From contig JALQYJ010000097.1 of NCBI GenBank assembly GCA_023254175.1, positions 1 to 60,408 of the forward strand: a stretch of 60,408 nt of DNA, written 5' to 3'. Both the position numbers and the translations under genes were made by a program. Positions 41,505 to 59,970 of this stretch are shown piece by piece. How positions within the stretch are numbered: the stretch's first letter is position 1; each line of letters begins with the position of its first letter. Source of the DNA: Runella sp. (lineage in GTDB: Bacteria; Bacteroidota; Bacteroidia; Cytophagales; Spirosomataceae). The notes under the pieces were generated by a model, which did not search any database, was not told the DNA's origin, and was given only the letters and a program-made list of their open reading frames with translations.

Positions 41505-42167
41505 TTACTTTATACGTTTTGCCTTCGCTTCAAACATATTCATCAGCGTGCCTTTGAGGTTATCGTCATCTACTTTGTTTAATTCAACGTTGACATCGTA
41601 TCCCTGAGCAGAAAAATAAAGCGTAATTTTGCCATCAGTTTCTTCCACTTTCGCGGGTATTGTTTCTTTTGCATCCCCCGCCGTCATTTTCAAATCCCCT
41701 GTCAATTTACCGTCTTTACGAATAAACTCAGTAGTAAACTTAGCATCACCATTTGGAGTACCAACAACAACAATTTCCCACTTCCCTGCGAAGAAGTCAT
41801 TGCTTTTTAGTCGTTTTCCCGATGCTTCAAACGAATCGGCCAACAACCCTTTGAGGTTATCTCCGTCAACTTTATTAAGGGCTAAATTCAAATCGTATCC
41901 AGCCGCCGAGAAAAATAATACGATTTTATCGGCGCTTTCTTCAATCGAACTAATAGCAATTTTCTCCGTCGCTTGACTAGTGATTGGCGTCAAGTCGCCC
42001 GTCAACTTCCCTTCTTTTCGAACCAAATTTCCCGTCATTTTCACGTCGCCTTGAGGAGTTTCTTTGACAAAAATTTCCCATTTGCCCACCCAATAATCGG
42101 TTTGTGCAACACTTTCTGATACGATACCACCCACAAGTGCGAGAATCAATACGATTGCTTTTTTCAT
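41505..42167 (-). CDS. Exported protein made of two copies of a ~95-residue beta-rich domain
   Basis: 220 residues with a signal peptide (residues 1-21, ending SVAQ). The mature part is two tandem repeats: WVGKWEIFVKETPQGDVKM ... LKGLLADSFEASGKRLK, and FFAGKWEIVVVGTPNGDAKF ... LKGTLMNMFEAKAKRIK. The repeats share KWEIxVxxTPxGDxK, RKxGKLTGDL, a Y(D)xN(V/L)xLNKVDxDNLKG segment and an AxxKRxK end. A third copy forms the C-terminus of the neighbouring 1263-residue protein upstream in the same operon. Looks lipocalin-like in pattern; function not known. Confidence 0.7.
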   Translation of the reverse strand: MKKAIVLILALVGGIVSESVAQTDYWVGKWEIFVKETPQGDVKMTGNLVRKEGKLTGDLTPITSQATEKIAISSIEESADKIVLFFSAAGYDLNLALNKVDGDNLKGLLADSFEASGKRLKSNDFFAGKWEIVVVGTPNGDAKFTTEFIRKDGKLTGDLKMTAGDAKETIPAKVEETDGKITLYFSAQGYDVNVELNKVDDDNLKGTLMNMFEAKAKRIK

Positions 42168-45100: not shown

Positions 45101-45981
45101 ATAAACAACACCCGGTCTTTATCCAACACCGTCAACTCCATTGGTTCGTCCAATTTTTCTTCCAACACCACCTTGGTAAAACGGTTTTCTTCAGGACGCG
45201 ATTTAGTAAAATCAAGCGGTTTAGGAGAATTCCCGCCTATAGCGTACTGAATTCCTGCCCACAAGTGATTGAGGAAAAGCACTTCCGAAAACGACTCATC
45301 GGTATGACCCATTGCAGTATAAAAAGCCCGTCCACCGTCATACTCTTGGTACCAGCTCATAGGATGATAATCAGGGTTTTTACCACCAATATAGGTTTTT
45401 TCGTCAATTGTGAGTACGACATTGATTTTAGGAGAAATATCCTTAAAGCTATAAAACTCATCGGTGCGTTCAAATTCATCAGGCATTCCTTTGGTAGCCC
45501 AGTGGTTTTTAAGTTTAACGATGAATTTTCCCTTCTGAACGTTGCTAGGCGTACTTGGGTGATCTAAAAAGTAAGCTCCCGCCAATTTTCCGTACCAAGG
45601 CCAATCGTATTCAGTGTCCGTTGCCGAGTGAATCCCTACATAACCACCTCCTGCCTGAACGTAACGTTCAAAAGCAACTTGCTGCTCGTCGTTTAAAATG
45701 TTACCTGTGGTATTTAAAAAGACAACGGCACTGTATTTTTTGAGATTAGGCTCATTGAACTGCGTCGCTTCTTCCGAAAAGCTAACGCCAAAGCCTTTTT
45801 CTTTCGCCATTTTTGCCAAAGCCACTTTACCTGCTTCAATGGATTGGTGACGAAACCCTTCCGTTTTGCTAAAAACCAAAACGTTTAATTTCGCCGTTTG
45901 TGCAACTAGGTGGTTAGTACAGAAAAGCAACAATAATGCTTTTACATATAGCCACCTACTTACATAAAGTAGCTGTTTCAT
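42190..45981 (-). CDS. ThuA / sugar-dehydrogenase / PKD / cytochrome c / CBM chimera
   Basis: 1263 residues with a signal peptide (cleavage near LVAQ, residue 28). In order: ThuA trehalose-utilisation/glutamine-amidotransferase-like domain (about 30-245; KTEGFRHQSIEAGKVAL, GGGYVGIHSATDTEYDWPWY); PQQ-dependent glucose/sorbosone dehydrogenase-like beta-propeller (about 260-700; HTGGAIDWDKAGNLYLS, MGHRNPFRISVD); PKD domain (about 705-785); cytochrome c class I with CMACHSIDKKS (about residue 880); a CBM6-like region (about 950-1135); and a C-terminal domain (1165-1263) repeated twice in the next gene. It should oxidise a sugar in the periplasm, passing electrons to its own heme. A palindromic operator and -7 box lie upstream, divergent from the Nudix regulator. 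Confidence 0.85.
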   Translation of the reverse strand: MKQLLYVSRWLYVKALLLLFCTNHLVAQTAKLNVLVFSKTEGFRHQSIEAGKVALAKMAKEKGFGVSFSEEATQFNEPNLKKYSAVVFLNTTGNILNDEQQVAFERYVQAGGGYVGIHSATDTEYDWPWYGKLAGAYFLDHPSTPSNVQKGKFIVKLKNHWATKGMPDEFERTDEFYSFKDISPKINVVLTIDEKTYIGGKNPDYHPMSWYQEYDGGRAFYTAMGHTDESFSEVLFLNHLWAGIQYAIGGNSPKPLDFTKSRPEENRFTKVVLEEKLDEPMELTVLDKDRVLFIQRKGEIRLYNNKTKQLKTIAKLPVSLKYVNREGKESVAEDGVLGLGKDPKFAQNQWIYLYYSSTKGSYNVLSRFTMKGDELLMDSEKEILKVETQREECCHTGGAIDWDKAGNLYLSTGDNTNPHASNGYSPSDERPGRSPWDAQKSSANTNDLRGKILRIKPQPDGTYTIPEGNLFAKGMDKTRPEIYTMGHRNPFRISVDQKTGKLYWGDVGPDASKSDPNRGAAGTCEFGQASASGNYGWPHFVGNNQPYNKFNFETKQSGEKWDVFKPVNNSPNNTGLIQLPEAKGAMIWYTYGKSDEFPLLGSGGCNPMAGPVYNKEMFATASRAFPAYYDGKFFAYEWMRGWIMAVSFDKNGNYASMERFMPSYKFSNPMDMEFAENGDLYILEYGSGWFTANDDARLVRIEYNGGNRKPQIQLAANQMGGAVPFNLKLSAKGTTDADGDALKYTWKITSKAGFNKIVTTQDANVTLAKAGIYKATLTVDDGKGGLNTQSMEITAGNEPPVLSLEMPKSNRSFYIANRKFNYDIKVSDKEDGTVGKGIDPENVAVSIDYLAEGFDKNMIAMGHRSADASAAFATGKKLIQASDCMACHSIDKKSIGPTYRDVANKYKGDNSALEKLTKKVISGGSGVWGETAMAGHPQLSTADASEMVKYILNIANEKPKAKSMPLNGSYVAKAPAADKNKGVYIVRAAYEDQGANGLPALRSEQTFTLRNSKVDAHGFDVYNDVNKMAFGGNNLAIPAKSGAYMAMKEVDLNGITELIVMATAPKPQLNAAGGAIELRIDSPTGKVIGKSDFLEASDKMDFTPKMVKIPINDGPNDGKLHNIFAVFVNPKAEGSLMVVMGSEFKLAGSSEEEAAPKAAEATSEQADFFVGAWETTFMGTPQGDAVMNLRLERKDGKLTGTIKPKTGDIPAETLEKVEETDGKIMIYFKMSGFNINVNLEKVDADNVKGSMMGMFTTKATRIK

Positions 45982-46024
45982 AGGAAATTGTTGGTATAAA
46001 TTACTGATAGATTAATTTTTAGAA

Positions 46025-46032
46025 CAAAAGTA
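46025..46032 (-). promoter_or_regulatory. -7 box of the ThuA chimera gene
   Basis: TACTTTTG on the minus strand (exact TAnnTTTG). The operator begins 13 bp upstream and covers the -33 region. Confidence 0.55.
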
Positions 46033-46045
46033 GAAGAAATATCTT

Positions 46046-46070
46046 TTATTGTCTATTTTAGAGACAATAA
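46046..46070. promoter_or_regulatory. Palindromic operator, copy 1 (TTATTGTCT-N7-AGACAATAA)
   Basis: A perfect 9-bp inverted repeat with 7-bp spacer, identical in arms and spacing to the copy at 57009-57033. It lies in the divergent region between the ThuA chimera and the Nudix regulator, a typical place for the regulator's own site. Binding is inferred. Confidence 0.7.
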
Positions 46071-46133
46071 ATTTTTCATTATTTTGCCTTTGAAGAGTAC
46101 CTCTTTGTAAGAGGTAAAAAATCTGGATAAACA

Positions 46134-46141
46134 TACCTTTG
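46134..46141 (+). promoter_or_regulatory. -7 box of the Nudix-type regulator
   Basis: TACCTTTG, an exact TAnnTTTG match, 64 bp upstream of the ATG at 46206. The nearest TTTG upstream (46104-46107) is 26 bp away, longer than usual. Confidence 0.45.
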
Positions 46142-46205
46142 TACTAAATTTAAGTTTTTCAAAAATTGGCCGTTTCCAAATTTGCAATTCCTAAAACCAC
46201 GCCCT

Positions 46206-46979
46206 ATGAAGTTATTTAATGAAGAATATTTTATTCGCCAGCTCTCTATCGATTGTGTTATTTTTGGTTATCAAGAATTGGAATTAAAGGTCTTAGTTTC
46301 TAGAGTTGCTCTTCCTAACTCCGTCTGGACACTTCCTGGGGGGTTTATCAGGCAAGAGGAAAGTATTGACTTAGCCGCCCAACGTATTTTGGAAGAACGC
46401 ACAGGACTCACTGACATTTACCTAGAGCAATATCGGGTATTTGGGGAGCCATCTCGTATCAACCACGAAATCGTTGAGGGTTTCAACAACATGAAAAAAG
46501 AATGGCTAAGTAAAAGTATGTTAGACGAAAGTAGTTTCCAATGGCTCTCCAAACGCTTTGTTTCGATTGGCTATTATGCCTTGGTAGACATCAACAAAGT
46601 GAGCCCTCGAAAAGGAATGCTTGATACTTCCGTTGATTGGTACAATGTGAAGGAACTACCAACAATGATTATGGACCACAACGAAATGGTCGATGCCGCG
46701 CTGGAAACTCTCCGACAAAACCTTGACCAAAAGCTCATTGGCTTTAATCTTTTACCCGAAACGTTCACGATGCGAGAAGTACAAGAACTGTACGAAGCGG
46801 TGTATGACAAACCTTTTGCCCGCAACAATTTCCAAAAGAAAATGCTCGACCTGAACGTACTCGAACGCCTCGAAAAGAAATTTACAGGGGCGCAGAATAA
46901 GGCGCCGTATTTGTACCGGTTCCAAAAAGTAACTCAACAAAGCATGGAAGAGCCGCAGGTTATTGAAAATCTTTCGTAA
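46206..46979 (+). CDS. Nudix-domain transcriptional regulator (NrtR/AraR-like)
   Basis: 257 residues from ATG 46206 (MKLFNEEYFIRQLSIDCVIF); the upstream in-frame codons to 46182 are not family-like. Residues 1-150 are a Nudix fold, but the Nudix box GGFIRQEESIDLAAQRILEE keeps only part of the GX5EX7REUXEE residues, so hydrolysis is unlikely and ligand sensing more likely. Residues 165-245 are a winged helix (FTMREVQELYEAVYDKPFAR, then NFQKKMLDLNVLERL), as in NrtR and the Bacteroides arabinose regulator AraR. It is divergent from the sugar-dehydrogenase chimera and next to a rhamnosidase operon that shares the same operator, so it likely senses a sugar. Confidence 0.85.
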   Translation: MKLFNEEYFIRQLSIDCVIFGYQELELKVLVSRVALPNSVWTLPGGFIRQEESIDLAAQRILEERTGLTDIYLEQYRVFGEPSRINHEIVEGFNNMKKEWLSKSMLDESSFQWLSKRFVSIGYYALVDINKVSPRKGMLDTSVDWYNVKELPTMIMDHNEMVDAALETLRQNLDQKLIGFNLLPETFTMREVQELYEAVYDKPFARNNFQKKMLDLNVLERLEKKFTGAQNKAPYLYRFQKVTQQSMEEPQVIENLS

Positions 46980-47010
46980 TTTCAAATTGTGACACGCTCT
47001 GCTCAATCGC

Positions 47011-47504
47011 ATGCACGAAGCTTTGATAAATTACATCGACCGTCAGTTAGCAACGCCGTTGTCTGAGGATGAAATTACGCGTATCAAGAAGACCTTTGTT
47101 CCCAAAAAACTCCAAAAACACCAGTATTTTCTTCAAGAAGGCGACATCTGCAAAGTGACAGGGTTTGTCAAAAAAGAGGCCATGCGCCAGTACACCGTTG
47201 ATAAATCGGGTAAAGAATATATTTTGGGTTTGTACATTGAAAATTGGTGAATCGCCGACCGCGAAAGCTTTACCCAAAACACCCCGTCATTGTACAACAT
47301 TGATGCTTTTGAGGATACCGAGTTTGTGGTAGTGACGCAGGAAGCATTTCAACACTCATTGAAGCCGAACAACGTCTGGCCGATTTAGAGAGAACCTATC
47401 CAGCATTTTTACTCGGTATCAGTGAATTACTGGAGGGGGTAGGTCTATTGTTTCCTTCTTTCCTCAGAGTCAAGCCTATACTTACCACCCCTTGCCGCTG
47501 CTAG
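47011..47504 (+). pseudogene. Decayed Crp/Fnr-family regulator gene
   Basis: Frame 1 gives a cyclic-nucleotide-binding domain start (LQKHQYFLQEGDICKVTGFV; DKSGKEYILGLYIENW) and hits TGA at 47248-47250, where relatives have a second Trp (ENWW). The same frame continues IADRESFTQNTPSLYNIDAF and EDTEFVVVTQEAF to a stop at 47386. A second frame contains IEAEQRLADLERTYPAFL, from the dimerisation-helix region. A section between them and the helix-turn-helix are missing. So it carries a nonsense mutation, a frameshift and a deletion. It starts 31 bp after the Nudix regulator on the same strand. Confidence 0.75.
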
Positions 47505-47528
47505 TTTGGCCGTAGTGATAGACCGTTA

Positions 47529-47554
47529 TAAGAGGCGAGTTGCCCCGCCTCTTA
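47529..47554. terminator. Terminator at the end of the rhamnosidase operon
   Basis: TAAGAGGCG and CGCCTCTTA form a 9-bp stem with an 8-nt loop between the Crp/Fnr remnant (plus) and the GH106 gene (minus), so it can serve both strands. Confidence 0.6.
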
Positions 47555-47574
47555 CTTTTCATTGATAATTTCTC

Positions 47575-50500
47575 CTATTTTACTTGCACTACCTTCACCT
47601 CACCAATTAAACCTGAGGGAACCAAAGGCGAATCTTTGCGGTAAAACGGCATGGTTGTGAAGGTCGTTTTTTGCTTAACATCGGGCTGCGCATCCCCCAC
47701 AAGGCGGTTGACCCAATTATTGGTAACATTGATTTGAAGGTTATTCTCACCTTCTTTCACCGCCGAAGTAACGTCGATTTTATACGGTTTTTTCCAAACG
47801 GTTCCTACGTTTTTACCGTTCACAATGACCTCCGCGATATTTTTAACATCGCCCAAATCGAGGATAGCAGCCTTTCCCCCAATGGGGGTATTTATTTGAA
47901 AATTATTCTCATAAGTGGCTGTACCTGAAAAGTATTTTACGTCAGTATCTGCATTTTCACTCCATGACGTCAGTTTATCCATCGTTACATTTTTACCTGC
48001 AATGCTTACTTTCCATGCTCCTGACATTTGGCTCAGGGGCGTTTCTTTAGTAGCAGGCTTGGTGTAGCTATTGACCGTGGCTTTGTCTTTGAAAACAACA
48101 AAAAACGCATCCCATGATTCAAATTTCAAAGGAACAATAGTGCGTCCAGCCTTCATTTGGTAACTCACCTTTTCGACTTTGCCTGTTTGTGCGTGCCATA
48201 TTTCTGGTACCCTACCCGTTATTCGGAAACTTACCTCGGCATTGGTAGGGTTGTCGCTACGATTGTTTAACCAATAAATATCAGTCCCTTGGTCCTTCGA
48301 AAGCCCGTCCCCACTAACAGCAATTTGACGGTGGCGGTATAGGATTTTATTTGGGGTATTTGAAATAATTATGTCGGGTTGCATTCCGATTAGAGACAGG
48401 GCATGCCCTGTCTCTACATTGACGTTTGGATTTGACCAAATTTCATTTACAATCGACTGAAATTCAGACTCATTATCGGCCAAACTTGGCGATTTTAGCG
48501 GTTTTTCGCCTGCTACTTTTACCCCTGCTTTGACCAAATCACGAATTTTTTTCAAAACAGGCAGGGTCATCAGTTTCGCAGATTCATCCAACACCAGGAT
48601 GCTATACGTATTACCACTTTGCGCCACTAACTTCCCATTTTGAGCCTTAATCGCATTTAATAGTGCCGAAGAATTGACAAAATCGAACTCAAAACCCGCA
48701 GGAATAGCTGGCAATTTTTCTCGGCAAAGCCATGTGATATTGGTATTTTCTCCGTACAAATAAAGAATATCGGCTACGTTTTTACCTTGTTGTAGCATAT
48801 AGCTGCTTCTCCCCAAATAGCCCATCCACGCTTTGCCTCCCGCTTCGGCCCACGTCTCTTGGCGGGTAAAATACTGTCCAAATGGCCCAAGTGAAAAACC
48901 AGGTTTTTTATCATCGAGTGGTTGGTGAACGGAAGTGTGAATCACAAATCGGTTTAAACCCGACGCCATTTCCAAATCAGCAGTACGTTTCAATTTTTCA
49001 GGATATTCTTGAAAAGGTTTTCCCACCGACGTCATTGATTCTGCCGCCACGATGGTTTTACCATAAATATTAGCTACCGAAGCCGATTCACGAATATCTG
49101 CCTCACTCCGTACCTCCTCGTCGTTTCCTCCTGCCAAGCTCCCTGGCGTCCACATAGCCGACATCGGAATATCCGAATTGCGTTTTACATCCATACCATC
49201 GGCCAAATAAATCCGTCCACCTTCATGTGATTCAGTATAGCGTTTCATACCACGTTTCTTCAACTCTTCCCCAATCACATCATAGTGGTTTTCGGCAATC
49301 ATTTCGCCAATCGTTTTTCTGAAATCCCACAAGAATTTTTCACTTTCTTCTACATTCTTCACGATTCTACCCGTAAGCACCGGCACCCAAGGGCGTAAAT
49401 CGTACGCACGTCTTTTCTTAAATTCATCGGGCAGATTTTTGGTCCAGTTCATGTGCCCTGCCTCGTAACTATCCAAAACCATGTACTGCAATCCCTTTGC
49501 GCCCATCATTCCCCCTGTGGCATCTTTGTACATATCCAAGTAAGTATTAATATACCGACGTACCGCTTCTTTGTCAAGTTTATCCACTTCCAAACCTGTT
49601 GCCTCAGGCGAAGCAGGGTGGTTTTGGCGGCCAGTTAGTGAATACCCCAAACGCACAACCATCCAAGTAGACCCCTCACCCCCGGTGGGGGGATTCCAGT
49701 CGATTGTACCATCTGACTTCATTTTATCAGTTAAGTCGATTACATCAGACGTTGGAATCGCATCAACATCTCTTCCCTCATTAGGGAATAGGGGGCTTTC
49801 TTTCCAAGCTACAAAGCCTGCTTTATCTGCCGCTTGATCAATGCGCGACGTATTGAAAAGAACAAACTCCGAAATATTTGTCCCTTCGGGCTTGGGTTCT
49901 CCTGTTTGCCCCATCAGGGCCGCAATCGAATTGATGGTTCCTGGCAGAGTTTCAAAACAAATCCGCCAGTATTTGGCTGTAGTGGCAGGAATCCCAACCG
50001 TAATAAACGGCAAAGTACTGTTAGGCACTTTGACTACGGTTCTAAAATTTACCCCGTCGTCGCTTACTTTTAAACTACGATTGTTTGGTCCCCCGTTAAA
50101 TTCCGACAATTCGCCCGCAGGGCTCACCCCCACCGCAAACGCCTTGAAAGTTTGAGGAGTATCAAATGCATACTGTACCCACATATCTTTTCCGACCTCC
50201 ATAGGAGGCAAAAGGTAGGTTTTGTTCAAATCGTGGTCGAGCATCAGCTTTGTGTCAAAATCCCCTCCACTTTTGCTCATCTTTGGGTTCAACTCCATAA
50301 GATGCTTTTCGTTAGAGGGCAACTTATACGCAATCACGAGGGCATCGGCCGCAAAGCGAGGCATTTCACCCACAAATCCCCCCATCAATCCACCTGCAGC
50401 AGTTCCTACTTCCTGAAACTTACCTATCACATTAGGAAGCGAGGGAAGTTTTACGGTTTGTTTTTTTCCTCCTTCTACGAGCGTCTCAGCCCAAACATAC

Positions 50501-50898
50501 TTTTTCATGGCATCTTCAGGCTTTACCCAAGGTCCCCCTGTCACACTCCAACCTGGCGACCCCGCAATGGCCATTTCGAGCCCTTTTTGCTCGGCGAGTT
50601 CGGTCGTAAATTTAAACGCATCTTTCCAGTCGGGCGTCATAAAAACAAGTTTTTTGGGAACCACGACGGGCGTAAACAAGTTCGCGTCGAAGTTTTGAAA
50701 CCCGCCGATACCCACTCGTTGCATCCATTCTAAGTCTTTTTGGATGCCTTCTTTAGAGATATTACCGTTCATCCAATGCCACCAAACGCGCGGCTTAGCC
50801 GAGCTGGGAGGGGTCTGAAACTGGGTCTTGTCTTGGGCATAACCTCCTACATTCGACAAAAGTAGTAAGGCTAGAACAGCTTGAATTTTTGTTCTCAT
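47575..50898 (-). CDS. GH106-family glycoside hydrolase (alpha-L-rhamnosidase-like)
   Basis: 1107 residues with a signal peptide (ending GGYAQ). The start of the mature protein, PRVWWHWMNGNISKEGIQKD, then MQRVGIGGFQNFDAN, is the recognisable GH106 N-terminal barrel. Later landmarks are EMAIAGSPGWSVTGGPWVKP and KKRRAYDLRPWVPVLTGRIV; the C-terminus is a jelly-roll sandwich (AEVIVNGKNVGTVWKKPYKI). GH106 enzymes remove alpha-L-rhamnose from rhamnogalacturonan and other glycans or glycosides. It is the last gene of the five-gene operon. Odd point: a 26-bp perfect palindrome at 48391-48416 lies in frame, encoding VETGHALSL, and looks like a dispersed repeat inserted in the coding region. Two GC-rich palindromic stretches (about 49675-49690 and 49777-49797) may be similar. 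Confidence 0.85.
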   Translation of the reverse strand: MRTKIQAVLALLLLSNVGGYAQDKTQFQTPPSSAKPRVWWHWMNGNISKEGIQKDLEWMQRVGIGGFQNFDANLFTPVVVPKKLVFMTPDWKDAFKFTTELAEQKGLEMAIAGSPGWSVTGGPWVKPEDAMKKYVWAETLVEGGKKQTVKLPSLPNVIGKFQEVGTAAGGLMGGFVGEMPRFAADALVIAYKLPSNEKHLMELNPKMSKSGGDFDTKLMLDHDLNKTYLLPPMEVGKDMWVQYAFDTPQTFKAFAVGVSPAGELSEFNGGPNNRSLKVSDDGVNFRTVVKVPNSTLPFITVGIPATTAKYWRICFETLPGTINSIAALMGQTGEPKPEGTNISEFVLFNTSRIDQAADKAGFVAWKESPLFPNEGRDVDAIPTSDVIDLTDKMKSDGTIDWNPPTGGEGSTWMVVRLGYSLTGRQNHPASPEATGLEVDKLDKEAVRRYINTYLDMYKDATGGMMGAKGLQYMVLDSYEAGHMNWTKNLPDEFKKRRAYDLRPWVPVLTGRIVKNVEESEKFLWDFRKTIGEMIAENHYDVIGEELKKRGMKRYTESHEGGRIYLADGMDVKRNSDIPMSAMWTPGSLAGGNDEEVRSEADIRESASVANIYGKTIVAAESMTSVGKPFQEYPEKLKRTADLEMASGLNRFVIHTSVHQPLDDKKPGFSLGPFGQYFTRQETWAEAGGKAWMGYLGRSSYMLQQGKNVADILYLYGENTNITWLCREKLPAIPAGFEFDFVNSSALLNAIKAQNGKLVAQSGNTYSILVLDESAKLMTLPVLKKIRDLVKAGVKVAGEKPLKSPSLADNESEFQSIVNEIWSNPNVNVETGHALSLIGMQPDIIISNTPNKILYRHRQIAVSGDGLSKDQGTDIYWLNNRSDNPTNAEVSFRITGRVPEIWHAQTGKVEKVSYQMKAGRTIVPLKFESWDAFFVVFKDKATVNSYTKPATKETPLSQMSGAWKVSIAGKNVTMDKLTSWSENADTDVKYFSGTATYENNFQINTPIGGKAAILDLGDVKNIAEVIVNGKNVGTVWKKPYKIDVTSAVKEGENNLQINVTNNWVNRLVGDAQPDVKQKTTFTTMPFYRKDSPLVPSGLIGEVKVVQVK
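48391..48416. repeat. 26-bp perfect palindrome inside GH106
   Basis: TAGAGACAGGGCA joined directly to its reverse complement. This shape (GTAGAGAC...GTCTCTAC around a variable core) is one I associate with a dispersed repeat in other genomes, including cyanobacteria. It is in frame with the coding sequence. Confidence 0.75.
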
Positions 50899-50944
50899 TC
50901 AATTAGAGTTATTGGTAAAAAGGAGCGCACACTAGCTACCTACC

Positions 50945-51811
50945 TCAGCGGGGTATGGCTAGCGTTTTATAATAAAAATTGACCGTATGCTTCACCGAGG
51001 AAAGGTTCGACGGCTTCTCTTTGGTATCGCGTTCAATCATGATATATCCCTTGTAGTTTTGACTCTTCAATTCGTCAAAAACTGCTGGAAAGTCGATTAC
51101 TCCCGTTCCTACAGGCACATCTTGGAGTTTATTGTTGTTGTATTCCGCGATGTCTTTTAGGTGAATTCCAATGATTTTTCCGTGCAATTTCTTCAACGCT
51201 AACACAGGGTTTATTCCTGATTTAGGGTAGTGCCCAAGATCGGGGCAAGCCCCAAAATTGGGATGACCTTTCAAGGCCGCCAATACCGAATCAGGATGCC
51301 AATAAATGCTGTTTCCATTCCAATGGTTGTGCAAAGCTACTTTTATTCCGTAAGCCCCTGCCAAACTATCCACGCTGTTCCACAAATTTCGAGGGGGCTC
51401 TGCAGTCACATATTTGACCCCGAACGCTTTCGCTATTTCAAAATCGCGTTTCCAATCGGGTAGTGTTTTACCTCCAATGATGTATATCGACTCCATTTTA
51501 AGCCCTTTATCAGCTATCTGCTTTTTCAGATGCTGAAGCCCCGACGGCGAAAGCCGAAATAGTGCGGAGTCTTGAAGTTCTTTTCCCGCTTTGGCAAACA
51601 CAAACCCTTCCACGTACTTTAAGGAAGCACTGTCGGCGTAGGCCAATTGTTCGGGAAAAGATGCTGTACTAAAGGTGTACAAGGCCACACCCAGCTTCCA
51701 GTTTTCAGCGACAGACGTGTTTTTAGACGTTGACTGTGCATTTAGCACTAACGAAAACATCATAACTACTAACCCAAAGGCTAATACGGTTACTTGATAT
51801 TTATTTTTCAT
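50945..51811 (-). CDS. Exported sugar phosphate isomerase/epimerase-like TIM barrel
   Basis: 288 residues with a signal peptide (MKNKYQVTVLAFGLVVMMFS, cleavage near LNAQ). The xylose-isomerase-like TIM barrel is shown by KLGVALYTFSTASFPEQLAY, KYVTAEPPRNLWNSVDSLAG, VALHNHWNGNSIYW, GACPDLGHYPKSGINP (metal ligands), IIGIHLKDI and YIMIERDTKE. Periplasmic members of this family occur in polysaccharide and glycoside utilisation loci, but the exact reaction is not known. Fourth gene of the operon. Confidence 0.82.
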   Translation of the reverse strand: MKNKYQVTVLAFGLVVMMFSLVLNAQSTSKNTSVAENWKLGVALYTFSTASFPEQLAYADSASLKYVEGFVFAKAGKELQDSALFRLSPSGLQHLKKQIADKGLKMESIYIIGGKTLPDWKRDFEIAKAFGVKYVTAEPPRNLWNSVDSLAGAYGIKVALHNHWNGNSIYWHPDSVLAALKGHPNFGACPDLGHYPKSGINPVLALKKLHGKIIGIHLKDIAEYNNNKLQDVPVGTGVIDFPAVFDELKSQNYKGYIMIERDTKEKPSNLSSVKHTVNFYYKTLAIPR

Positions 51812-51848
51812 TGAAATTCAAAAATTAAATATTCCTCATTTTTTAGTG

Positions 51849-53477
51849 TTACACTTTCCCGATAGAACGCCACATCTCAATTTCTGACCCAAACCGATTA
51901 TTGATTACTTCCAATTGCGTATCAATGCGCATCGTTGAGCGATTTTTCAGGTCGTAAGCTTTCCATTTAGGGGCATTTTGGGCGGCGGGCTTTCCTGTTT
52001 TGGCAAAAGTAGTCCACAACTCAGCAAAATTATGCGAAGCTGTTACCCGTTCAGGTCTATTTCCTCCAAAGAAACTGGGTTTTTTAGCAGATTCATTAAA
52101 AAACTTAAAACTAATATCCATTGCGTGAGGAGTTCCCATCGCATACTCAGTTCCAGGAATTTTTGCTTCTGATTTGTACCCAAAATTGTACAGATACACT
52201 GGTGCTCCGTTTTGCGCAGCTTTCCTTTCGGCGATAATCACCGAACCCAAACCCATCATCGTAATTGAAGAAATGGCAATAAAAATATCGGGAGCAGTGG
52301 CTTGTGGTCTGGCTTTTTGATAGGTCTCAATAATTTTAGACGTATCTTGACCGTATTGTGGTTCAAGCTTTTTGTGTAAGCTTTCAAAGTCCAATTTGGC
52401 AAACTCGGTATCTTTCCTTTCCCACGCAAAAAAGGTGTATTCATCTTCGTTCCAACCTACCAACAATGGCTTATTTTTAGAAATTGCAGGAGCAGTTGGG
52501 TCAAACGGATGGTGCGGTAGTGCTTTCCCATCCACCACTGGGGCAAATCCACCCGCATTGCGCTGCATCATCCCCCGATTTTTATTTTTTTCAACAAATG
52601 GGGGCACAAAAGGAAGTTTAGATTGTATAGCCAATAGCTCCGAAGCGGGGACATCCAAGACTTTTTTCCAATTGCTTACGGAGATATTTAGCTCTTTCAA
52701 CAACATCAGCGTTATCTCTTGGGCAATTTCTTTATCCACCATGCGTACGCCTGGCCCACTTTCAATGGAGGCTTTGTTGAAATATGGAGCTGCCGAAGGC
52801 ATGGCATACAAACACGATGTTTTTGCGCCACCACCCGATTCTCCCCAAATCATCACGTTGTTGGGATCACCACCAAATTGAGCAATATTAGCATTCACCC
52901 ATTTCAGTCCTTCCACAATGTCTAGCATACCGTTATTGCCTGACCCTTCGTAGTCTTTTCCACCCAGTTCGTCCAAATAAAGGAAGCCTAATAATCCCAA
53001 ACGGTGATTGGTTTCCACCACCACATCAAAATTTCGGGCTAAATTTGCTCCATCTTGCCCAGCCGAACCGCCCGAACCAATCACAAAACCACCCCCATGG
53101 CTGTAAAACATGACAGGACGTTTTTTGTTGTCGGTAGCAGGAGTCCAGACATTCAAGAAAAGGCAATCTTCGGAAGGAGCGGGTTCGTTCCGTCTTGGAT
53201 TTTGAATAGCTGGTGCTCCAAGAGTAAGTGCCTCACGCACTCCTGTCCATGGTTCGAGCGGCGCAGGGCGGCGGAAACGTCTTTCGCCCGAGGTTTTCCC
53301 TGCATAAGGCACTCCTTTGAAAATACTTACGCCTTGTTCTCGGTAGCCTTTGATTTTGCCGTGAGTGGTATCAGCAGTTACGAATTCCTCAATCAATGAA
53401 TTGGAAAAAGCATAATTTGCAACCGACAAGCCTGCGACCGAAAGGGCAGTTTTGTTTAAAAATTCTCTCCTTTTCAT
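51849..53477 (-). CDS. Carboxylesterase type B, exported
   Basis: 542 residues. The N-terminus MKRREFLNKTALSVAGLSVA is a twin-arginine-type signal (RREFL). The catalytic serine is in MIWGESGGGAKTSCLYAMPS (Gly-Glu-Ser-Gly-Gly), the oxyanion hole in FYSHGGGFVIGSGG, and a His near TPHAMDISFKFFNES, giving a complete type B triad region. EDCLFLNVWTP is also typical. It may deacylate a phenolic or acetylated glycoside before or after rhamnose removal (inference from neighbours). It lies 5 bp after the GH78 gene. Confidence 0.9.
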   Translation of the reverse strand: MKRREFLNKTALSVAGLSVANYAFSNSLIEEFVTADTTHGKIKGYREQGVSIFKGVPYAGKTSGERRFRRPAPLEPWTGVREALTLGAPAIQNPRRNEPAPSEDCLFLNVWTPATDNKKRPVMFYSHGGGFVIGSGGSAGQDGANLARNFDVVVETNHRLGLLGFLYLDELGGKDYEGSGNNGMLDIVEGLKWVNANIAQFGGDPNNVMIWGESGGGAKTSCLYAMPSAAPYFNKASIESGPGVRMVDKEIAQEITLMLLKELNISVSNWKKVLDVPASELLAIQSKLPFVPPFVEKNKNRGMMQRNAGGFAPVVDGKALPHHPFDPTAPAISKNKPLLVGWNEDEYTFFAWERKDTEFAKLDFESLHKKLEPQYGQDTSKIIETYQKARPQATAPDIFIAISSITMMGLGSVIIAERKAAQNGAPVYLYNFGYKSEAKIPGTEYAMGTPHAMDISFKFFNESAKKPSFFGGNRPERVTASHNFAELWTTFAKTGKPAAQNAPKWKAYDLKNRSTMRIDTQLEVINNRFGSEIEMWRSIGKV

Positions 53478-53482
53478 GATTT

Positions 53483-55870
53483 TTAAATATTGAAATTATT
53501 CATACCCTCTTTCAAGGCAATCGTTTTACCTTTCCAAACCAAGTTACCCGTAGTGGTTTTTGGTAATTCGATTTGAATCTTCCATTTGCCATTTTCTAAT
53601 TTATAACTGGCCGAAATACTTCCTTTGGGATGCGGCATCTTTCCACTGATTTCAGTCATTTGACCCAAATGTGGCTGAATTTTGACTTTTGAAAAGGCCA
53701 AACCGTCGCTGTCAATACCGAGGATAGTGCGGTAAAATTCAATGTTTGGACTCGAACCCCAGGCATGACAATCGGAGCGAGTTTTGTCCACATCGGAAGT
53801 TTCAGCCCAAGTGGTAAGTCCCATTTGAATGTTTTCACGCCATTTATCGAGCCATTTCAAATAGTCGTTGCCTTTGCCCGCTTTAATCAATGCCTGATGC
53901 AAATAATATTTAAAATAGATAGAGGCTGGCGCAAGTTTGGAGTTGGTAATGAATTGATTGGCAATCTCATTTGCTTCTTGTGGCGTAGCCAAACCCGTCA
54001 GAATAGCCAATGAATTGGTATGTTGCGAAAACTCATCTTTTTCTTCTCGGTCAGCAAAAAGTTTTTTGGCACTGTCCCAGTATTTGGCTCTGATGGTCTT
54101 TTTTAAAGTAGCAATTTCCTGTTGGTATTGAGACGCAAAAGCAGCATTACCCAGTTTTGTTTCCAAATCTGCCGCTACCTGATACGCCCAAAGTAACTGA
54201 AAATCAAGCACAGCTGAAGTACCATTGGCACTCATTGGCCCCATACCTGCCCGCCATTCTTTGAAATTATCCACCCAATCGGTAAACATCCACTGGGGAG
54301 AGTTTTTTAACGAGCCATCAGCTTGTTGGTAGCTTTTGAAGTAATTCAAAATTTGCCGCGTACCACTTATTTTGCCCTTTACAAACTCAATATCAGCACC
54401 GTAGCGAGCGTAGTCTTGCAACATACCAATGTACCAAAGCGAGAAAGTCGGGATAAATTGGGGAGTATAAGAGGGATGTCGGCTCAGGGTAACGCCCTCG
54501 GGTGTTCGAGAAAAATCCATGAGGTTAATGGCATTTTTTACGAGTCGGTCATCGCCGCTGTTGTAAAGCGATACCAATGCCTGAATACGACCATCCCCAA
54601 TGTATTGAAGTTGCTCATAGTAAGGGCAATCCATGTAAGTTTCATAGGCACAAAGACGAGCGGTACGCCAGCCAATTTCAAGCATTTTATCCATTTCGGA
54701 CTGGTTGGCCAACAGTTGGGCATTCATCCGAAAAGGATAACCCGTAAATGTACCATAAATATCATTTAAGGTAATTTCCTCATTTTGAGTAACAATACTT
54801 AGTTGAACATAGCGGTAAGTACGGTAGGTAAGGCTAGTAAATTTCTGGCGTTGGCTTCCGTCCGAAACAAGGCTATCAGCCCGCCCAATAAAGGTTTTGC
54901 CAGCGGTTTCGTTTCTATTGCCTTTTGAGGTATTTTTAAAAAGTGCCTCAGCATATCTCAATGTAATACTCGCCGATTTACCTCCACTAAATTCTACATT
55001 TGGGTAGGCATTGGTCAAATAACTTTGGTCCAAAATAAGGATTACTTTCGAGTTGGCAGGAATCGTCACTTCTGATTTTTGAGCAGGAAAACCCGCAGGC
55101 AAACCCGTAATACCCTCATTACTAACTACTTTAACCAATCTCTCATCTTTCAGCTCCATTTGAGGTATGATTGACGGCACAAGCATCCAGCCGCTCATGG
55201 TACCAAAGGCCCCTAAAATATTTTTGGGAACTCCTCCCCCCACGGGTCTCGCTTTTTGCCAATTTTTATCGTCAAAACCTTCACTTTTCCAATTTTTGGG
55301 GCTTAAAGCCATGTTACGAATTTCACCCGCTCCAGCCACATAATAGCCCCGCGTTCTGAAAACCAAAGGGGCGAAGCTGTTGTCTTTTTCACAAAGCCAA
55401 GTGTTGTTGGTATTCACCGCCGACTCCGCAGAAGTAGCTCCCTGAAGAATAAAACCCGTTCGATAAGTTATCTGCGCCTCGGGTTTAAATTCGCCCTCGT
55501 TCCACACTTGGGCAGCAATGATATTTTTTCCTGCTTTTAAATAAGACGCAATGTCCACCGTTTCGTAGTTCCAATGGGCAATATCGCCACGGGCAGGACC
55601 CATCGAAACCAGTGTTTCGTTCACAAAAAGTTTGTAGCGGTTATCGCCCGAAACGTGAATTTTGAAATTATTGGGCTTAGAAGCCAACTCAATGGTTTTG
55701 CGAAACAGATACACACCATATCCATCAGCCGTAGTGTTGGGCACAGAAATCCACTGGGCGTGCCAGCGTTTGTTAACGACATCAGGTTCACCCGTTGGAG
55801 GCCCAAATTGCGCCTTAGTACTTGAAGTTAAGGTTGCAAAAACTAGGGCAATTAGTGCTATCTTTTTCAC
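53483..55870 (-). CDS. GH78-family alpha-L-rhamnosidase
   Basis: 795 residues with a signal peptide (ending STKAQ). The N-terminal beta-sandwich domains (WISVPNTTADGYGVYLFRKT; FKIHVSGDNRYKLFVNETLV) precede the (alpha/alpha)6 barrel, whose hallmark is ETYMDCPYYEQLQYIGDGRI (residues about 417-436), the Bac_rhamnosid catalytic region with the acidic residues. The barrel continues with TPQFIPTFSLWYIGMLQDYA and TDWVDNFKEWRAGMG. It should release terminal alpha-L-rhamnose from oligosaccharides or flavonoid-type glycosides in the periplasm. Second gene of the operon, 22 bp after the alpha/beta hydrolase. Confidence 0.92.
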   Translation of the reverse strand: MKKIALIALVFATLTSSTKAQFGPPTGEPDVVNKRWHAQWISVPNTTADGYGVYLFRKTIELASKPNNFKIHVSGDNRYKLFVNETLVSMGPARGDIAHWNYETVDIASYLKAGKNIIAAQVWNEGEFKPEAQITYRTGFILQGATSAESAVNTNNTWLCEKDNSFAPLVFRTRGYYVAGAGEIRNMALSPKNWKSEGFDDKNWQKARPVGGGVPKNILGAFGTMSGWMLVPSIIPQMELKDERLVKVVSNEGITGLPAGFPAQKSEVTIPANSKVILILDQSYLTNAYPNVEFSGGKSASITLRYAEALFKNTSKGNRNETAGKTFIGRADSLVSDGSQRQKFTSLTYRTYRYVQLSIVTQNEEITLNDIYGTFTGYPFRMNAQLLANQSEMDKMLEIGWRTARLCAYETYMDCPYYEQLQYIGDGRIQALVSLYNSGDDRLVKNAINLMDFSRTPEGVTLSRHPSYTPQFIPTFSLWYIGMLQDYARYGADIEFVKGKISGTRQILNYFKSYQQADGSLKNSPQWMFTDWVDNFKEWRAGMGPMSANGTSAVLDFQLLWAYQVAADLETKLGNAAFASQYQQEIATLKKTIRAKYWDSAKKLFADREEKDEFSQHTNSLAILTGLATPQEANEIANQFITNSKLAPASIYFKYYLHQALIKAGKGNDYLKWLDKWRENIQMGLTTWAETSDVDKTRSDCHAWGSSPNIEFYRTILGIDSDGLAFSKVKIQPHLGQMTEISGKMPHPKGSISASYKLENGKWKIQIELPKTTTGNLVWKGKTIALKEGMNNFNI

Positions 55871-55892
55871 AGTGATAAGGTTAAATGGATAT

Positions 55893-56795
55893 TTATTTCA
55901 ATTCAGCTTTCAAGAAGTCAATCACTTTAGTTTTAATTTCTTCCACATCAAACATTTTCCCAAAATGAGGGGCATCTTTAACGATAATAAGTTCGTTTTT
56001 AACGCCGTTGACCGTAAGCCAACTGCTCAATAATTGCGAGTGGCGCGGTGCAACTAAGTTGTCTTTTTCGCCGTGAATCAATAAAAACGGCGGATCGGTT
56101 TTATCAACGTAGGTTGTGGGGCTTGCGATTTTGGCCAAATCAGGGCGCGCACTCGGAGCTGCCCCAATGAGCAACCCTTCGGGCGACTTGGCATCGTCTG
56201 CCCCAGGGAAAAGAATCAGCTCGGCTGGCCCGTAAAAGTCAACCACCGCTTTGAACTTAAACTTCTTTGATGTGTTAGGCATAAAAAAAGCATCAACTTT
56301 ATTGTTATTTGACAACCCTTGCAAAGAGGCCAAATGCCCCCCTGCTGAGAATCCCATCAAAGCGATTCGATTTTTATCCAAACCATATTTATCGGCGTTG
56401 TCGTATAAAAACGACACAGCACGATTACAGTCTTGAATTTGAGCGGGGAAGGTCGCTTGCGTTGCCCAACGGTAATCTATGGATGCAATGGCAATGCCAC
56501 TGTTAATTAGAGCCGATACGGTATTACCCATGTAACCAATATCGGCTGTTTTGTCATTGCCAATCCAACCGCCACCGTGAATCAACACCACGAGCGGCAA
56601 TTTTTTGGGAGCATTGGCAGGCAGATAAATATCTAATAAATGCTTTTTGAGAGTATCGTTATTGAATGGGATATTTCCGTGTAAAATCGTTCCTTGAGGA
56701 AAAAGTTTTAGGACACGGTTGGTTTCCTGTTGAGCATTGACCAAAAGCACTTGAAATAGTAAAAGTGCTACAAGAACTATCGACTTGATTTTCAT
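55893..56795 (-). CDS. Exported alpha/beta hydrolase (esterase/lipase-like)
   Basis: 300 residues with a signal peptide (ending LVNAQQ). The oxyanion motif is LVVLIHGGGWIGNDKTADIG, the nucleophile elbow ALMGFSAGGHLASLQ (Ser), and the acid/His part DAPHFGKMF near the end. It resembles hormone-sensitive-lipase/BD-FAE-type esterases that remove acetyl, feruloyl or related groups from carbohydrates. First gene of the five-gene operon; the operator at 57009-57033 lies upstream. Confidence 0.88.
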   Translation of the reverse strand: MKIKSIVLVALLLFQVLLVNAQQETNRVLKLFPQGTILHGNIPFNNDTLKKHLLDIYLPANAPKKLPLVVLIHGGGWIGNDKTADIGYMGNTVSALINSGIAIASIDYRWATQATFPAQIQDCNRAVSFLYDNADKYGLDKNRIALMGFSAGGHLASLQGLSNNNKVDAFFMPNTSKKFKFKAVVDFYGPAELILFPGADDAKSPEGLLIGAAPSARPDLAKIASPTTYVDKTDPPFLLIHGEKDNLVAPRHSQLLSSWLTVNGVKNELIIVKDAPHFGKMFDVEEIKTKVIDFLKAELK

Positions 56796-56875
56796 TCTAA
56801 GAAAAAATCAGGGTTTACTTTTTTACTAAAAGATAAATTAAATGCCTTAAAAACAAAGCCCCACCAAGGCGGCAT

Positions 56876-56895
56876 TCGGTGAAAAATATCACCGA
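56876..56895. promoter_or_regulatory. Stem-loop in the leader of the rhamnosidase operon
   Basis: TCGGTGA and TCACCGA form a perfect 7-bp stem with a 6-nt A/T loop, between the operator and the first gene. It could be an mRNA leader structure; no T-run follows. Confidence 0.4.
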
Positions 56896-57008
56896 GCGTC
56901 GCATAGTTGTAGACAAGCCCTGAGAAATTTTGAATAAAAGGCGTATTTTAACTTTTATAAATACAAATAAATGCTTCTTTTATCCAGAAATCATCCTGTA
57001 CTTGCCTG

Positions 57009-57033
57009 TTATTGTCTTTGTTTTAGACAATAA
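57009..57033. promoter_or_regulatory. Palindromic operator, copy 2 (TTATTGTCT-N7-AGACAATAA)
   Basis: A perfect 9-bp inverted repeat, identical in arms and spacing to copy 1. It lies upstream of the alpha/beta-hydrolase-led operon and immediately after the end of the MFS gene. I find no exact TAnnTTTG box beside it. Confidence 0.7.
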
Positions 57034-57049
57034 TAAATTCATGTCATTT

Positions 57050-58261
57050 CTATTTTAGTTTTGTTGAAAAAGCAAGTCCTGCTATTGCTAAACTTGCGGC
57101 AATCCACAAAAAAGCTGAGGGGTCAATAGCATCAGAAAGTAGACCCGCCAGAGCAGGAACGAGCACGCCCCCCACAATCTCTGCAACTCCTGTTATTAGC
57201 CCAATAGCCTTGGCTTTGAGATGTTCGGGAACTGCTTCTGAAGGCACCACAGCCGCGACCAATGGAATAAGCCCCATCATAAAATAGGTAAGAAACATAA
57301 CAGGCAAATGTACCCTCGAACCAGCTAAGAAATAAACGGCAAAAGGGTAACAAGCCCCTACAACACAAAAAAATAGAACCACTTTTTTTCGTCCTATTTT
57401 ATCCGAAAGACCTGGAACAAGAATAGAAGAGAATAAACCCGAAACCCCTAATAATCCCATTGTTTTGCCCATTTCATCAGCAGTCATGCCTTGAGTATTA
57501 ACAAAATAATTGGAAATAAAGGGTAGTGTAGCAAACCACCAACCAAACACACAACACGCAACGGGGATGCCCCATTTGATATTGTTGTATTGAAGTAACT
57601 CGGAGAGATTGAGGGTGGACGTTTCTTTGCTTTTCGCACTTTCTGCGGTTGTGTTCTTGACGTATACCCATGCAATCAACCCCAAAAGTAACCCTGGCGC
57701 CCCTGCAATATAAAAAGCATTGCGCCAACCCACGTTTTCGGCAATTTGTACTAAAACAACAGGTGCTAAAATAGAGCCAAACAGAGCCGAACCCATTCCT
57801 TGTAAAATTCCTGCATTTACGCCAAGGCGATGCGGTGAAGACTCGCGCTCAACAAAATTTTGGGCCAATGGAATGACAGGACCTTCGGCCAGGCCCATGA
57901 GTAGCCGAGCCAAAAGTAAGGTTACGAAAGAAATGGCCAAGCCTGAACCAAACGAACAAATCGAAAATACAAAAACGGCAATGACAAAAACGATTTTCTT
58001 TTTGTTATTCGTTTCGGCCCAAGCAGTAGAGAAAAAACTCGAAAAGGCCCATGCCAGTGACAATGCTCCTGCCAAAAGTCCGATTTGGGTGTTGTTGAGT
58101 TGAAGGTCTTTGGCCACATAGGGCATTAAAAAATTAAGCGCGAGGCGGTCAAAGAAAAGACAACCAAAGGTCAGCGCCATTACTAAGACTATGCCGTTTT
58201 CGTAGGTAAATAATCCTTTTTTGGACGTCGTGGAAATACCTTGTTCAGTTGGAGTACTCAT
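57050..58261 (-). CDS. MFS transporter (aromatic acid/organic anion type)
   Basis: 403 residues, 12 helices. N-terminal LFFDRLALNFLMPYVAKDLQ carries the early Asp/Arg typical of ACS-type anion symporters. Helix 4 has LLMGLAEGPVIPLAQNFVE, and the central loop separates two six-helix halves; LSDKIGRKKVVLFF is motif A of the second half. It probably imports a sugar acid or aromatic acid released by the neighbouring hydrolases (inference). A terminator at 58293-58323 separates it from the fumarylacetoacetate hydrolase-family gene upstream, and an operator for the next operon follows its stop. Confidence 0.85.
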   Translation of the reverse strand: MSTPTEQGISTTSKKGLFTYENGIVLVMALTFGCLFFDRLALNFLMPYVAKDLQLNNTQIGLLAGALSLAWAFSSFFSTAWAETNNKKKIVFVIAVFVFSICSFGSGLAISFVTLLLARLLMGLAEGPVIPLAQNFVERESSPHRLGVNAGILQGMGSALFGSILAPVVLVQIAENVGWRNAFYIAGAPGLLLGLIAWVYVKNTTAESAKSKETSTLNLSELLQYNNIKWGIPVACCVFGWWFATLPFISNYFVNTQGMTADEMGKTMGLLGVSGLFSSILVPGLSDKIGRKKVVLFFCVVGACYPFAVYFLAGSRVHLPVMFLTYFMMGLIPLVAAVVPSEAVPEHLKAKAIGLITGVAEIVGGVLVPALAGLLSDAIDPSAFLWIAASLAIAGLAFSTKLK

Positions 58262-58292
58262 CGAGAATAGATTTTAGGGTGATTTCGAGTAT

Positions 58293-58323
58293 AAAAAAAC
58301 TCATAGGAACAGGCGCCTATGAG
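58293..58323 (-). terminator. Terminator between the FAH-family and MFS genes
   Basis: On the minus strand CTCATAGG and CCTATGAG form an 8-bp stem with an 8-nt loop followed by seven T. It marks the end of the FAH-family transcript. Confidence 0.7.
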
Positions 58324-58514
58324 GTAGTACAGCCAAGTTCATCCTTTAGACTTATTGGTCATTTAAACAACATTGGGGCAAAATCCTGCAAATTTTTGCA
58401 CCATGCTGGAAATGTATGGGCTCCCCGCCATTTTCGTTATTGATATGAAAGTGCTCATGAGGCAATCCCAAAAATATCGGCACAAGGGATGAGCTCATAC
58501 CCATATTTCTGGGA
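58324..58514 (-). other. Unassigned stretch after the FAH-family gene, with a small open frame
   Basis: A 50-codon minus-strand frame at 58352-58504 reads HEHFHINNENGGEPIHFQHG, a His-rich pattern that looks like part of a metal-binding protein. It has no recognisable family, and its start is arbitrary. Possibly a gene remnant or a short peptide. Confidence 0.2.
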
Positions 58515-59471: not shown

Positions 59472-59476
59472 ATTTT

Positions 59477-59582
59477 AATTGGGAGTTTGGATTTGGGAAG
59501 TCGGAGTGTGAACACAGATTTTGGAATTTTGAATTAGGATTTAATTTTAAAATTCCCAACTCATAATTCCGCACTCCCAATT
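59477..59582. repeat. Inverted repeat of AATTGGGAGT type
   Basis: Left end AATTGGGAGTTTGGA and right end CCGCACTCCCAATT, with further pairing of GGAATTTTGAAT-like blocks between. A shorter copy is at 59908-59968. It looks like a dispersed element and separates the FAH gene from the remnant below. Confidence 0.5.
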
Positions 59583-59597
59583 CATTTTTTACTTTAT

Positions 59598-59864: not shown

Positions 59865-59907
59865 ATATAACTTGCAACTGTTTTAAAGTTCGTTGATGTC
59901 CATAAAA

Positions 59908-59968: not shown

Positions 59969-59970
59969 TA

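Follow-up and report, generated by a model that had tools for sequence, protein, structure and literature searches.

A sugar-type Nudix regulator and its probable operators at ThuA and rhamnosidase promoters in Runella

The locus and its palindromes

The stretch of DNA considered here, which we call the window, comprises 60,408 nucleotides of a Runella genome (Spirosomataceae; assembly GCA_023254175.1, contig JALQYJ010000097.1). It houses the gene for a Nudix-winged-helix regulator, a divergent gene for a fusion of ThuA to a glucose/sorbosone dehydrogenase, and a run of five genes, presumed to form an operon, that includes two for alpha-L-rhamnosidases (Table 1). Two perfect 9-7-9 inverted repeats with identical arms of 9 base pairs (bp), TTATTGTCT-N7-AGACAATAA, punctuate this arrangement: site 1 stands between the regulator gene and the ThuA fusion, and site 2 precedes the first gene of the rhamnosidase run by 213 bp, at a mere 16 bp beyond the stop codon of an MFS transporter gene. 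Both palindromes are very probably docking sites of the Nudix regulator, a presumed sugar sensor that would thereby govern its own promoter and the rhamnosidase genes. An earlier sequence-only reading had named this protein as the candidate binder, and that choice is supported by its membership of the NrtR/AraR family and by the covariation of helix residues with operator bases among its relatives.

A pattern search placed both repeats, with zero mismatch, at exactly the positions that reading had given. Its contention that such a pair is unlikely to arise by chance held as well: the window contains two matches with up to three mismatches, where 100 dinucleotide-preserving shuffles average 0.06 and never reach two. 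The kinds of gene it had named agree with Pfam. Its call for a genome-wide search was also productive. The genome (4.85 Mb, 99.86% complete) holds four sites with no more than one mismatch and six with up to three, compared with three at the latter threshold for the pattern read backward. The two further close sites carry one mismatch each: site 3 (contig C134, 40551-40575) is flanked by the gene for a second Nudix regulator (P0001) on one side and several carboxylesterase genes in a row on the other, and site 4 (contig C145, 13908-13932) precedes the gene for a 1212-residue GH78 rhamnosidase.

Across a genus sample of 13 genomes, this one included, the pattern was matched with up to two mismatches in all 13 and its backward control in one, although these matches include operators of other paralogues and places inside genes. 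The promoter equivalent to that of site 2 carries an operator (0-4 mismatches) in 10 of the 13. Genomes G011 and G012 showed neither a window-type nor a C134-type site, the second G011 match falling outside the regions inspected. Among relatives of the regulator with the same type of recognition helix, 24 of 25 are adjoined by an operator-like site.

Table 1. Features of the window in order of position
Feature	Position	Strand	Evidence or remark
Small protein behind the ThuA fusion; leader-like N-terminus, two similar halves (by eye)	41505..42167	-	
Fusion of ThuA, glucose/sorbosone dehydrogenase, PKD, cytochrome c and CBM6-like domains, divergent from the regulator	42190..45981	-	Pfam (CBM6 just below cut-off)
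-7 box TACTTTTG of the ThuA promoter, 13 bp from operator site 1	46025..46032	-	Box at 11-15 bp in relatives
Operator site 1, TTATTGTCT-ATTTTAG-AGACAATAA	46046..46070	.	Exact match
NrtR/AraR-type regulator, 257 residues, Nudix domain and NrtR_WHD winged helix	46206..46979	+	Pfam, PDB relative, alignments
Presumed target operon, gene 5: GH106 alpha-L-rhamnosidase	47575..50898	-	Pfam, 1068.2 bits
Presumed target operon, gene 4: xylose-isomerase-like TIM barrel	50945..51811	-	Pfam, 78.9 bits
Presumed target operon, gene 3: carboxylesterase	51849..53477	-	Pfam, 307.3 bits
Presumed target operon, gene 2: GH78-like alpha-L-rhamnosidase	53483..55870	-	Pfam PF17389, 69.2 bits
Presumed target operon, gene 1: BD-FAE-type alpha/beta hydrolase	55893..56795	-	Pfam, 269.7 bits
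Second conserved box, CAGGATG-N6-GGATAAAA-N10-TTTG, 10 bp behind operator site 2; promoter core or second-factor site	56964..56998	-	
Operator site 2, TTATTGTCT-TTGTTTT-AGACAATAA	57009..57033	.	Exact match
MFS transporter, upstream neighbour of site 2	57050..58261	-	Pfam; stop codon 16 bp before the operator

A sugar-type member of the NrtR/AraR family

Judged from its sequence, the regulator is a new, sugar-type member of the NrtR/AraR family. Pfam scores of 68.5 bits for NrtR_WHD (PF21906; cut-off 27), 32 for NUDIX (21.1) and 35.3 for AraR_C (23.8) place it there, and its nearest named relatives belong to Runella defluvii (92% identity) and R. limosa (91%). The Nudix signature GX5EX7REUXEEXGU reads G-FIRQE-E-SIDLAAQ-R-I-L-E-E-R-T-G-L, and because two signature glutamates are thereby replaced the Nudix domain is probably not an enzyme. 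The genome encodes seven Nudix-winged-helix regulators of this type.

The closest relative in the PDB (E=2.1e-43) is BtAraR, the product of BT0354 in Bacteroides thetaiotaomicron (PDB 5bs6, 5dd4, 5ddg, 5deq), which supplies the register for all that follows. Its crystal operator is listed as G7-T8-G9-T10-N7-A18-C19-A20-C21 (PMC4666351, Table 2), with seven bases between T10 and A18. As the contacts are described there, Lys179 holds G7, Arg180 is stacked in between T8 and G9, the A opposite T10 is bound by Asn181, and T10 itself is contacted by Lys184. The same source presents BtAraR as a repressor relieved by L-arabinose, describes Lys179, Arg180, Asn181, Lys184, Lys204 and Arg205 as absolutely conserved among AraR orthologues, and portrays NrtR-family operators as highly variable between bacterial groups, in step with DNA-contact residues that are not conserved (PMC4666351).

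In our alignments the recognition helix of the window protein, FARNNFQKK at residues 204-212, corresponds to BtAraR positions 177-185, and helix residues are numbered below as in BtAraR. The window operator falls into the same GTxT-N7-AxAC register, reading G7-T8-C9-T10-N7-A-G-A-C. Beyond this register the two proteins share domain order, Asn181 and Lys184, an impaired Nudix signature, and elements of the sugar pocket: His131 corresponds to H158 and Arg86 probably to R84 (an assignment made by paralogue comparison), both invariant in 37 sequences. Like these two, Arg34 of BtAraR binds arabinose; for it the alignments disagree, phmmer pairing it with an Arg and MAFFT and BLASTP with a Val; at the Arg favored by phmmer, the majority residue among the 37 sequences is Lys. 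Elsewhere the two proteins differ. Lys179 has become Arg; the intercalating Arg180 has become Asn, and operator base 9 is C rather than G; wing residues Lys204 and Arg205 are Asn and Lys; Phe129 is Met; and, in a subgroup made up of the window, C134 and C33 proteins, about 20 extra residues directly follow the presumed Arg86 position. The window regulator is, moreover, linked to ThuA and rhamnosidase genes instead of arabinose genes.

Several known identities were considered for the regulator. AraR proper was rejected on its six DNA contacts (Arg, Asn, Asn, Lys, Asn, Lys), its GTCT rather than GTGT half-sites, and its neighbors, the ThuA-dehydrogenase fusion and the rhamnosidases; a paralogue on contig C102 does fit AraR, having GTGT-N7-ACAC upstream and, as neighbors, an araA-like gene (by eye) and one for an FGGY kinase. 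Likewise rejected was an NAD-type NtrR/NrtR, for which the NCBIfam equivalog NF050029 scored 87.9 bits against a cut-off of 400; among the ten proteins around the regulator scanned with Pfam and NCBIfam, none was an NAD gene product. The NrtR of Shewanella oneidensis, an ADP-ribose-responsive NAD regulator (PDB 3gz5/3gz6), nevertheless has the same combination of Nudix domain and winged helix. XylR (BT0791), as presented in PMC3878776 and PMC4666351, belongs like the window protein to the sugar branch of the family in Bacteroidetes, and governs xylose genes. RhaR of B. thetaiotaomicron (BT3768) shares the rhamnose theme, but is described in PMC3878776 as an AraC-family regulator of rhamnose catabolism and is thus an unrelated protein. 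Literature searches found no paper joining Runella with rhamnosidase; for the operator arm letters there was no relevant title among the matches listed, and for NrtR combined with genus names the matches listed were, by title, taxonomy, genome and ecology papers in which NrtR did not occur.

Helix residues track operator bases

Close paralogues, several to a genome, are natural variants in which helix residues can be matched to operator letters in the register of a solved complex. Four sources—37 loci of named genomes, 30 C134-type loci, 80 further places and 20 further genus sequences, the window among them—yielded 172 regulators, 165 of them distinct. Operators were located with a neutral anchor of 12 letters, the outer TTATT.T and its mirror, which leaves positions 7, 9 and 10 and the spacer free. 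At a threshold of at least 11 of the 12 letters, the anchor occurs upstream of 112 of the 165 distinct regulators, against 13 of 825 base-shuffled upstream regions. An anchor-free count gave a similar picture: at least eight of nine arm letters pair in 113 of 172 upstream regions, compared with 73 of 860 dinucleotide shuffles.

Across these 112 regulator/operator pairs, four recognition-helix residues (179, 180, 181 and 184) track operator bases. Counted by half-site, Arg179 goes with G7 in 197 of 206 cases, other residues in 3 of 18; Asn180 goes with C9 in all 70; Asn181 goes with T10 in 93 of 110, other residues there being mixed; and Arg184 goes with C11 in 149 of 154 and with A12 in 144 of 154, against C11 in 4 of 70 for Lys184. 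Collapsing the proteins to 30 helix types retains all four associations by Fisher's test—Arg179 with G7 (22/0 versus 0/8, p=1.7e-7), Arg184 with C11 (19/1 versus 0/10, p=3.7e-7), Asn180 with C9 (9/0 versus 8/13, p=0.0033) and Asn181 with T10 (14/4 versus 1/11, p=0.0005)—although the helix types are related, such that these values overstate independence. A tree of the Nudix domains, midpoint rooted and read by Fitch parsimony, is consistent with coupled change at two of the positions. Residue 179 changes twice, both times on branches that lose G7 in one or both halves (chance 0.0009), and five of the 15 changes at residue 180 fall on branches where base 9 changes (chance 0.004). It is this covariation in relatives that ties the Nudix regulator to the operator.

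Other members of the family vary the theme. Regulators L232-L235 (genomes G004, G010, G007 and G001), with the same ARNNFQKK helix as the window protein but 57-59% identity, have the operator TTATTGTCT-N8-AGACAATAA; compared with the window type, the spacing of the half-sites has changed instead of their letters. A paralogue with a VRTNFQKM helix uses TTATTGTAT-N7-ATACAATAA (L131, L136, L142, L146, L112, L124 and L126), and in L131 and L136 its divergent neighbor is a GH79-like glycosidase.

Two promoter geometries

In Flavobacterium psychrophilum the -7 box of Bacteroidota promoters is described as TAnnTTTG at -12 to -5 (PMC9723704). Within the 37 loci, 24 sites fit the window-type expression, and 23 remained once L044:11597, which is not next to a regulator, was dropped; L040 and L041 appear to be genomes G002 and G003 of the genus sample, with the same sites, and L051 and L054 share an operator and are apparently close relatives. 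On the side of the operator that faces away from the regulator, all 23 loci have a TAnnTTTG whose start is 11-15 bp distant, whereas 1000 shuffles gave a mean of 0.08 and at most 2 of 23. The gene at this promoter encodes ThuA in 18 cases (nine stand-alone, nine fused to the dehydrogenase), GH106 in one (Larkinella), a 256-residue protein in two and a 402-residue protein in one; in the last case the gene is not visible. At the ThuA promoter the operator therefore covers the -33 region, a placement as for a repressor. In all ten C134-type esterase promoters, 17-19 bp separate the operator from the start codon that follows it.

The rhamnosidase promoters present a different arrangement, in which CAGGATA-N6-GTAYAAAA-N10-TTTG lies 9-10 bp behind the operator. 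Allowing up to two mismatches, this second box has 24 matches in the 13 genus genomes. Within the 30 loci examined there are 22 such boxes, of which 20 stand directly behind an operator (0-4 mismatches) and two do not; the other two matches lie outside those loci. Each of the 15 matches with 0-1 mismatch adjoins an operator. These promoters also served to define the pattern, and only matches with 0-2 mismatches were used, since at up to three mismatches the backward control is matched in all 13 genomes (65 places versus 117). The 20 promoters with both elements are spread two per genome over ten genomes, one before a GH78 gene and one before the rhamnosidase operon, whose first gene encodes a Dabb protein or the hydrolase (judged from the protein start in G005 and G007). 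If the TTTG ends a -7 box, the operator centre would sit near -62. The second box may represent an atypical promoter core, or a second factor may bind there.

The expectation of a plain repressor lying on its promoter thus fits site 1, but not clearly site 2, with its operator near -62 and its second box.

Paralogues and their sites

The helix-to-operator correspondence offers a means of assigning sites to paralogues. With Arg, Asn, Asn and Lys at 179, 180, 181 and 184, the window protein is predicted to read TGTCT without CA edges, which fits sites 1 and 2. The C134 protein (Arg, Gly, Ala, Arg) is predicted to read TGTC-N-CA-N3-TG, a form present in both halves of site 3 and in one half of site 4. 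A single regulator for all four genomic sites was accordingly rejected: site 3 has C11 A12 in both halves and site 4 in one, which fits the C134 paralogue. The link between the window regulator and the rhamnosidase operon stands because sites 1 and 2 match the prediction from its own helix. Even so, by this assignment the sister regulator on C134 shares the rhamnosidase theme, and the operator is not private to the window protein.

Within the genus, the operator at the rhamnosidase-operon promoter is edged in the window manner in G000, G002 and G006, and in G003 one of its halves is; these are the four genomes with both this promoter and a window-type regulator (7-bp operator). In G001, G004, G005, G007, G009 and G010 the same promoter has CA edges. 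Among the helices read in these six genomes, no window-type regulator with a 7-bp operator was seen, and four of the six have a relative with the window helix and an 8-bp spacer. The pattern hints that the rhamnosidase promoter may have been handed from one paralogue to another via its spacer edges, although the window-edged and CA-edged genomes may simply be two lineages.

The regulon and its effector

The most constant partner of the window-type regulator is ThuA, not the rhamnosidase operon. ThuA or ThuA-dehydrogenase relatives occur in 22 of the 37 loci, comprising 22 of the 25 with a window-type helix and none of the 12 others. Relatives of GH106 occur in five of the 37 (two Runella, Lacihabitans LS3-19, Larkinella and Dyadobacter arcticus), and in Larkinella the operator stands between the regulator and the GH106 gene. 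In the genome under study, operators precede the presumed transcription units of two of the four GH78 genes and one of the two strong GH106 genes. The proposal that one operator links the regulator to the rhamnosidase operon therefore survives in part: a second GH78 gene and the Larkinella GH106 gene carry the operator too, but the C134 paralogue uses nearly the same palindrome and ThuA is the steadier companion.

The suggestion that rhamnose is the inducer is unproven. No match to the rhamnose isomerase RhaA was found in the genome, and its three RhaM homologues all lie on contigs without any of the six operator sites (up to three mismatches). On these grounds rhamnose catabolism was rejected as part of the regulon, which looks instead like one for the release, and possibly the oxidation, of rhamnose-bearing glycosides. 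An effector derived from rhamnose is plausible, though we judge it less likely than not, and the sugar-pocket residues leave room for arabinose.

Proposed mechanism and alternatives

How might a single dimer serve two such different promoters? We propose that the Nudix domain, with its impaired signature, acts as a ligand sensor and that the winged helices bind DNA as a dimer, the effector-free form of which would occupy TTATTGTCT-N7-AGACAATAA. At site 1 the bound dimer would cover the -33 region of the ThuA-dehydrogenase promoter and lie before the regulator gene, repressing ThuA and probably the regulator too. At site 2 it would bind just upstream of the promoter for the hydrolase, GH78, esterase, TIM-barrel and GH106 genes, its centre near -62, and together with a reader of the adjacent box would set expression of the rhamnosidase run. 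A sugar or derivative released from rhamnose-containing glycosides would enter the Nudix pocket, turn the winged helices and free the DNA, as L-arabinose does with BtAraR. We give this explanation as a whole—an NrtR/AraR-type dimer at both sites, repression of ThuA and itself, control of the rhamnosidase run, and release by sugar—a probability of about three in four. What the analysis itself shows is the sites, the family, the register of the operator, the covariation of residues and bases, the promoter spacing and the conservation; from these we infer actual binding, the direction of control, the identity of the effector and co-transcription of the five genes.

A number of observations pull the other way. 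Of the 165 regulators, 53 fall below the anchor threshold, although a number of their upstream regions match 10 letters and look like operators; one of the 53, L124, keeps the arms but sets them 8 bp apart, as do four related loci. On the tree, residue 181 changes twice, only one change being shared with base 10 (p 0.07), and residue 184 changes once, on a branch without a parsimony-assigned change at base 11, such that its link to base 11 is in effect one event. Bases 7, 9, 10 and 11 change 7, 18, 8 and 8 times, mostly without a change in the matching residue. The -7 box on the regulator side is 63 bp from operator 1 in the window and 14-16 bp away in only 10 of 23 relatives, which makes self-repression less clear. 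Site 2 lacks a TAnnTTTG box at the repressor distance, and a terminator-like hairpin (56858-56884, minus strand) intervenes before the first gene. The lack of a RhaA match belongs here as well.

The alternatives differ chiefly in what they make of site 2. The Nudix protein could be an activator at the rhamnosidase promoters and a repressor of ThuA and of itself; such a division is unlikely, yet all 20 promoters carrying both operator and second box keep the two 9-10 bp apart, which would suit an activator poised near -62, as would nine aligned GH78/GH106 promoters in which the distance from the box to TTTTG is near-constant by eye and only five have a full TAnnTTTG, at 37 bp. Against this, BtAraR is described as a repressor relieved by its sugar (PMC4666351), and a repressor could also work by hindering a second factor at the box. 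Somewhat more doubtful is control of the site 2 operon by the C134 paralogue, or by both proteins, their operators differing only at the spacer edges. C134-type operators do share the arms apart from position 10, and six other genomes of the genus have a CA-type operator at this promoter. The edges of site 2 are, however, T11 T12 and A11 A12 in place of the C11 A12 expected from the Arg184 regulators' strong preference for C11, and in the genomes that possess a window-type regulator the edges are of window type in both halves or, in G003, in one.

Two further readings would remove the Nudix protein from the palindromes altogether. Their attribution to an unrelated factor is highly improbable, as operator and regulator gene occur together in different genera, and the operator varies in step with residues in the regulator's own helix. 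The least credible option treats site 2 as the terminator of the MFS transcript and site 1 as an unrelated palindrome. Proximity to the MFS stop codon and perfect 9-bp arms invite this idea, but the stems are A/T-rich, many sites elsewhere lie in divergent promoters, terminator calls fall at 56858-56884 (two) and none at site 2, and the spacing to the -7 box is regular; the hairpin reading was rejected on spacing and placement.

With the Nudix dimer retained as the preferred occupant of both sites, a broader picture can be ventured, albeit one we consider distinctly less probable than the local mechanism. In the Spirosomataceae, the NrtR family may have expanded into co-existing sensors whose operators differ by 1-4 letters read by residues 179, 180, 181 and 184, such that the controlling paralogue could be predicted from sequence; rhamnosidase promoters would follow a second geometry (near -62, 9-10 bp from a new box), possibly one of activation, and could pass between paralogues via the spacer edges. 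The natural variants of helix and operator make operator prediction and paralogue assignment testable. More immediately, the window protein becomes a candidate for controlling alpha-L-rhamnosidase genes in environmental Bacteroidota; beyond this locus, the comparison gives a correspondence between helix and operator drawn from natural variants, together with a new, second promoter box.

Neighboring genes and minor features

In 45900-57200 no RNA family reached its gathering score; the hairpin between site 2 and the first gene could be a leader or attenuator. Upstream of site 2, the minus-strand genes at 57050-60408 encode the MFS transporter, a fumarylacetoacetate-hydrolase family protein and a partial FAD monooxygenase-like protein, and may belong to an aromatic or sugar-acid pathway. 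The small protein behind the ThuA fusion matched no Pfam or NCBIfam family. Similarity to it is seen in part of the ThuA fusions of L047, L053 and L057, and its relatives lie near the regulator in several related genomes; in Dyadobacter, a perfect operator stands upstream of its homologue (by eye) in three of four loci.

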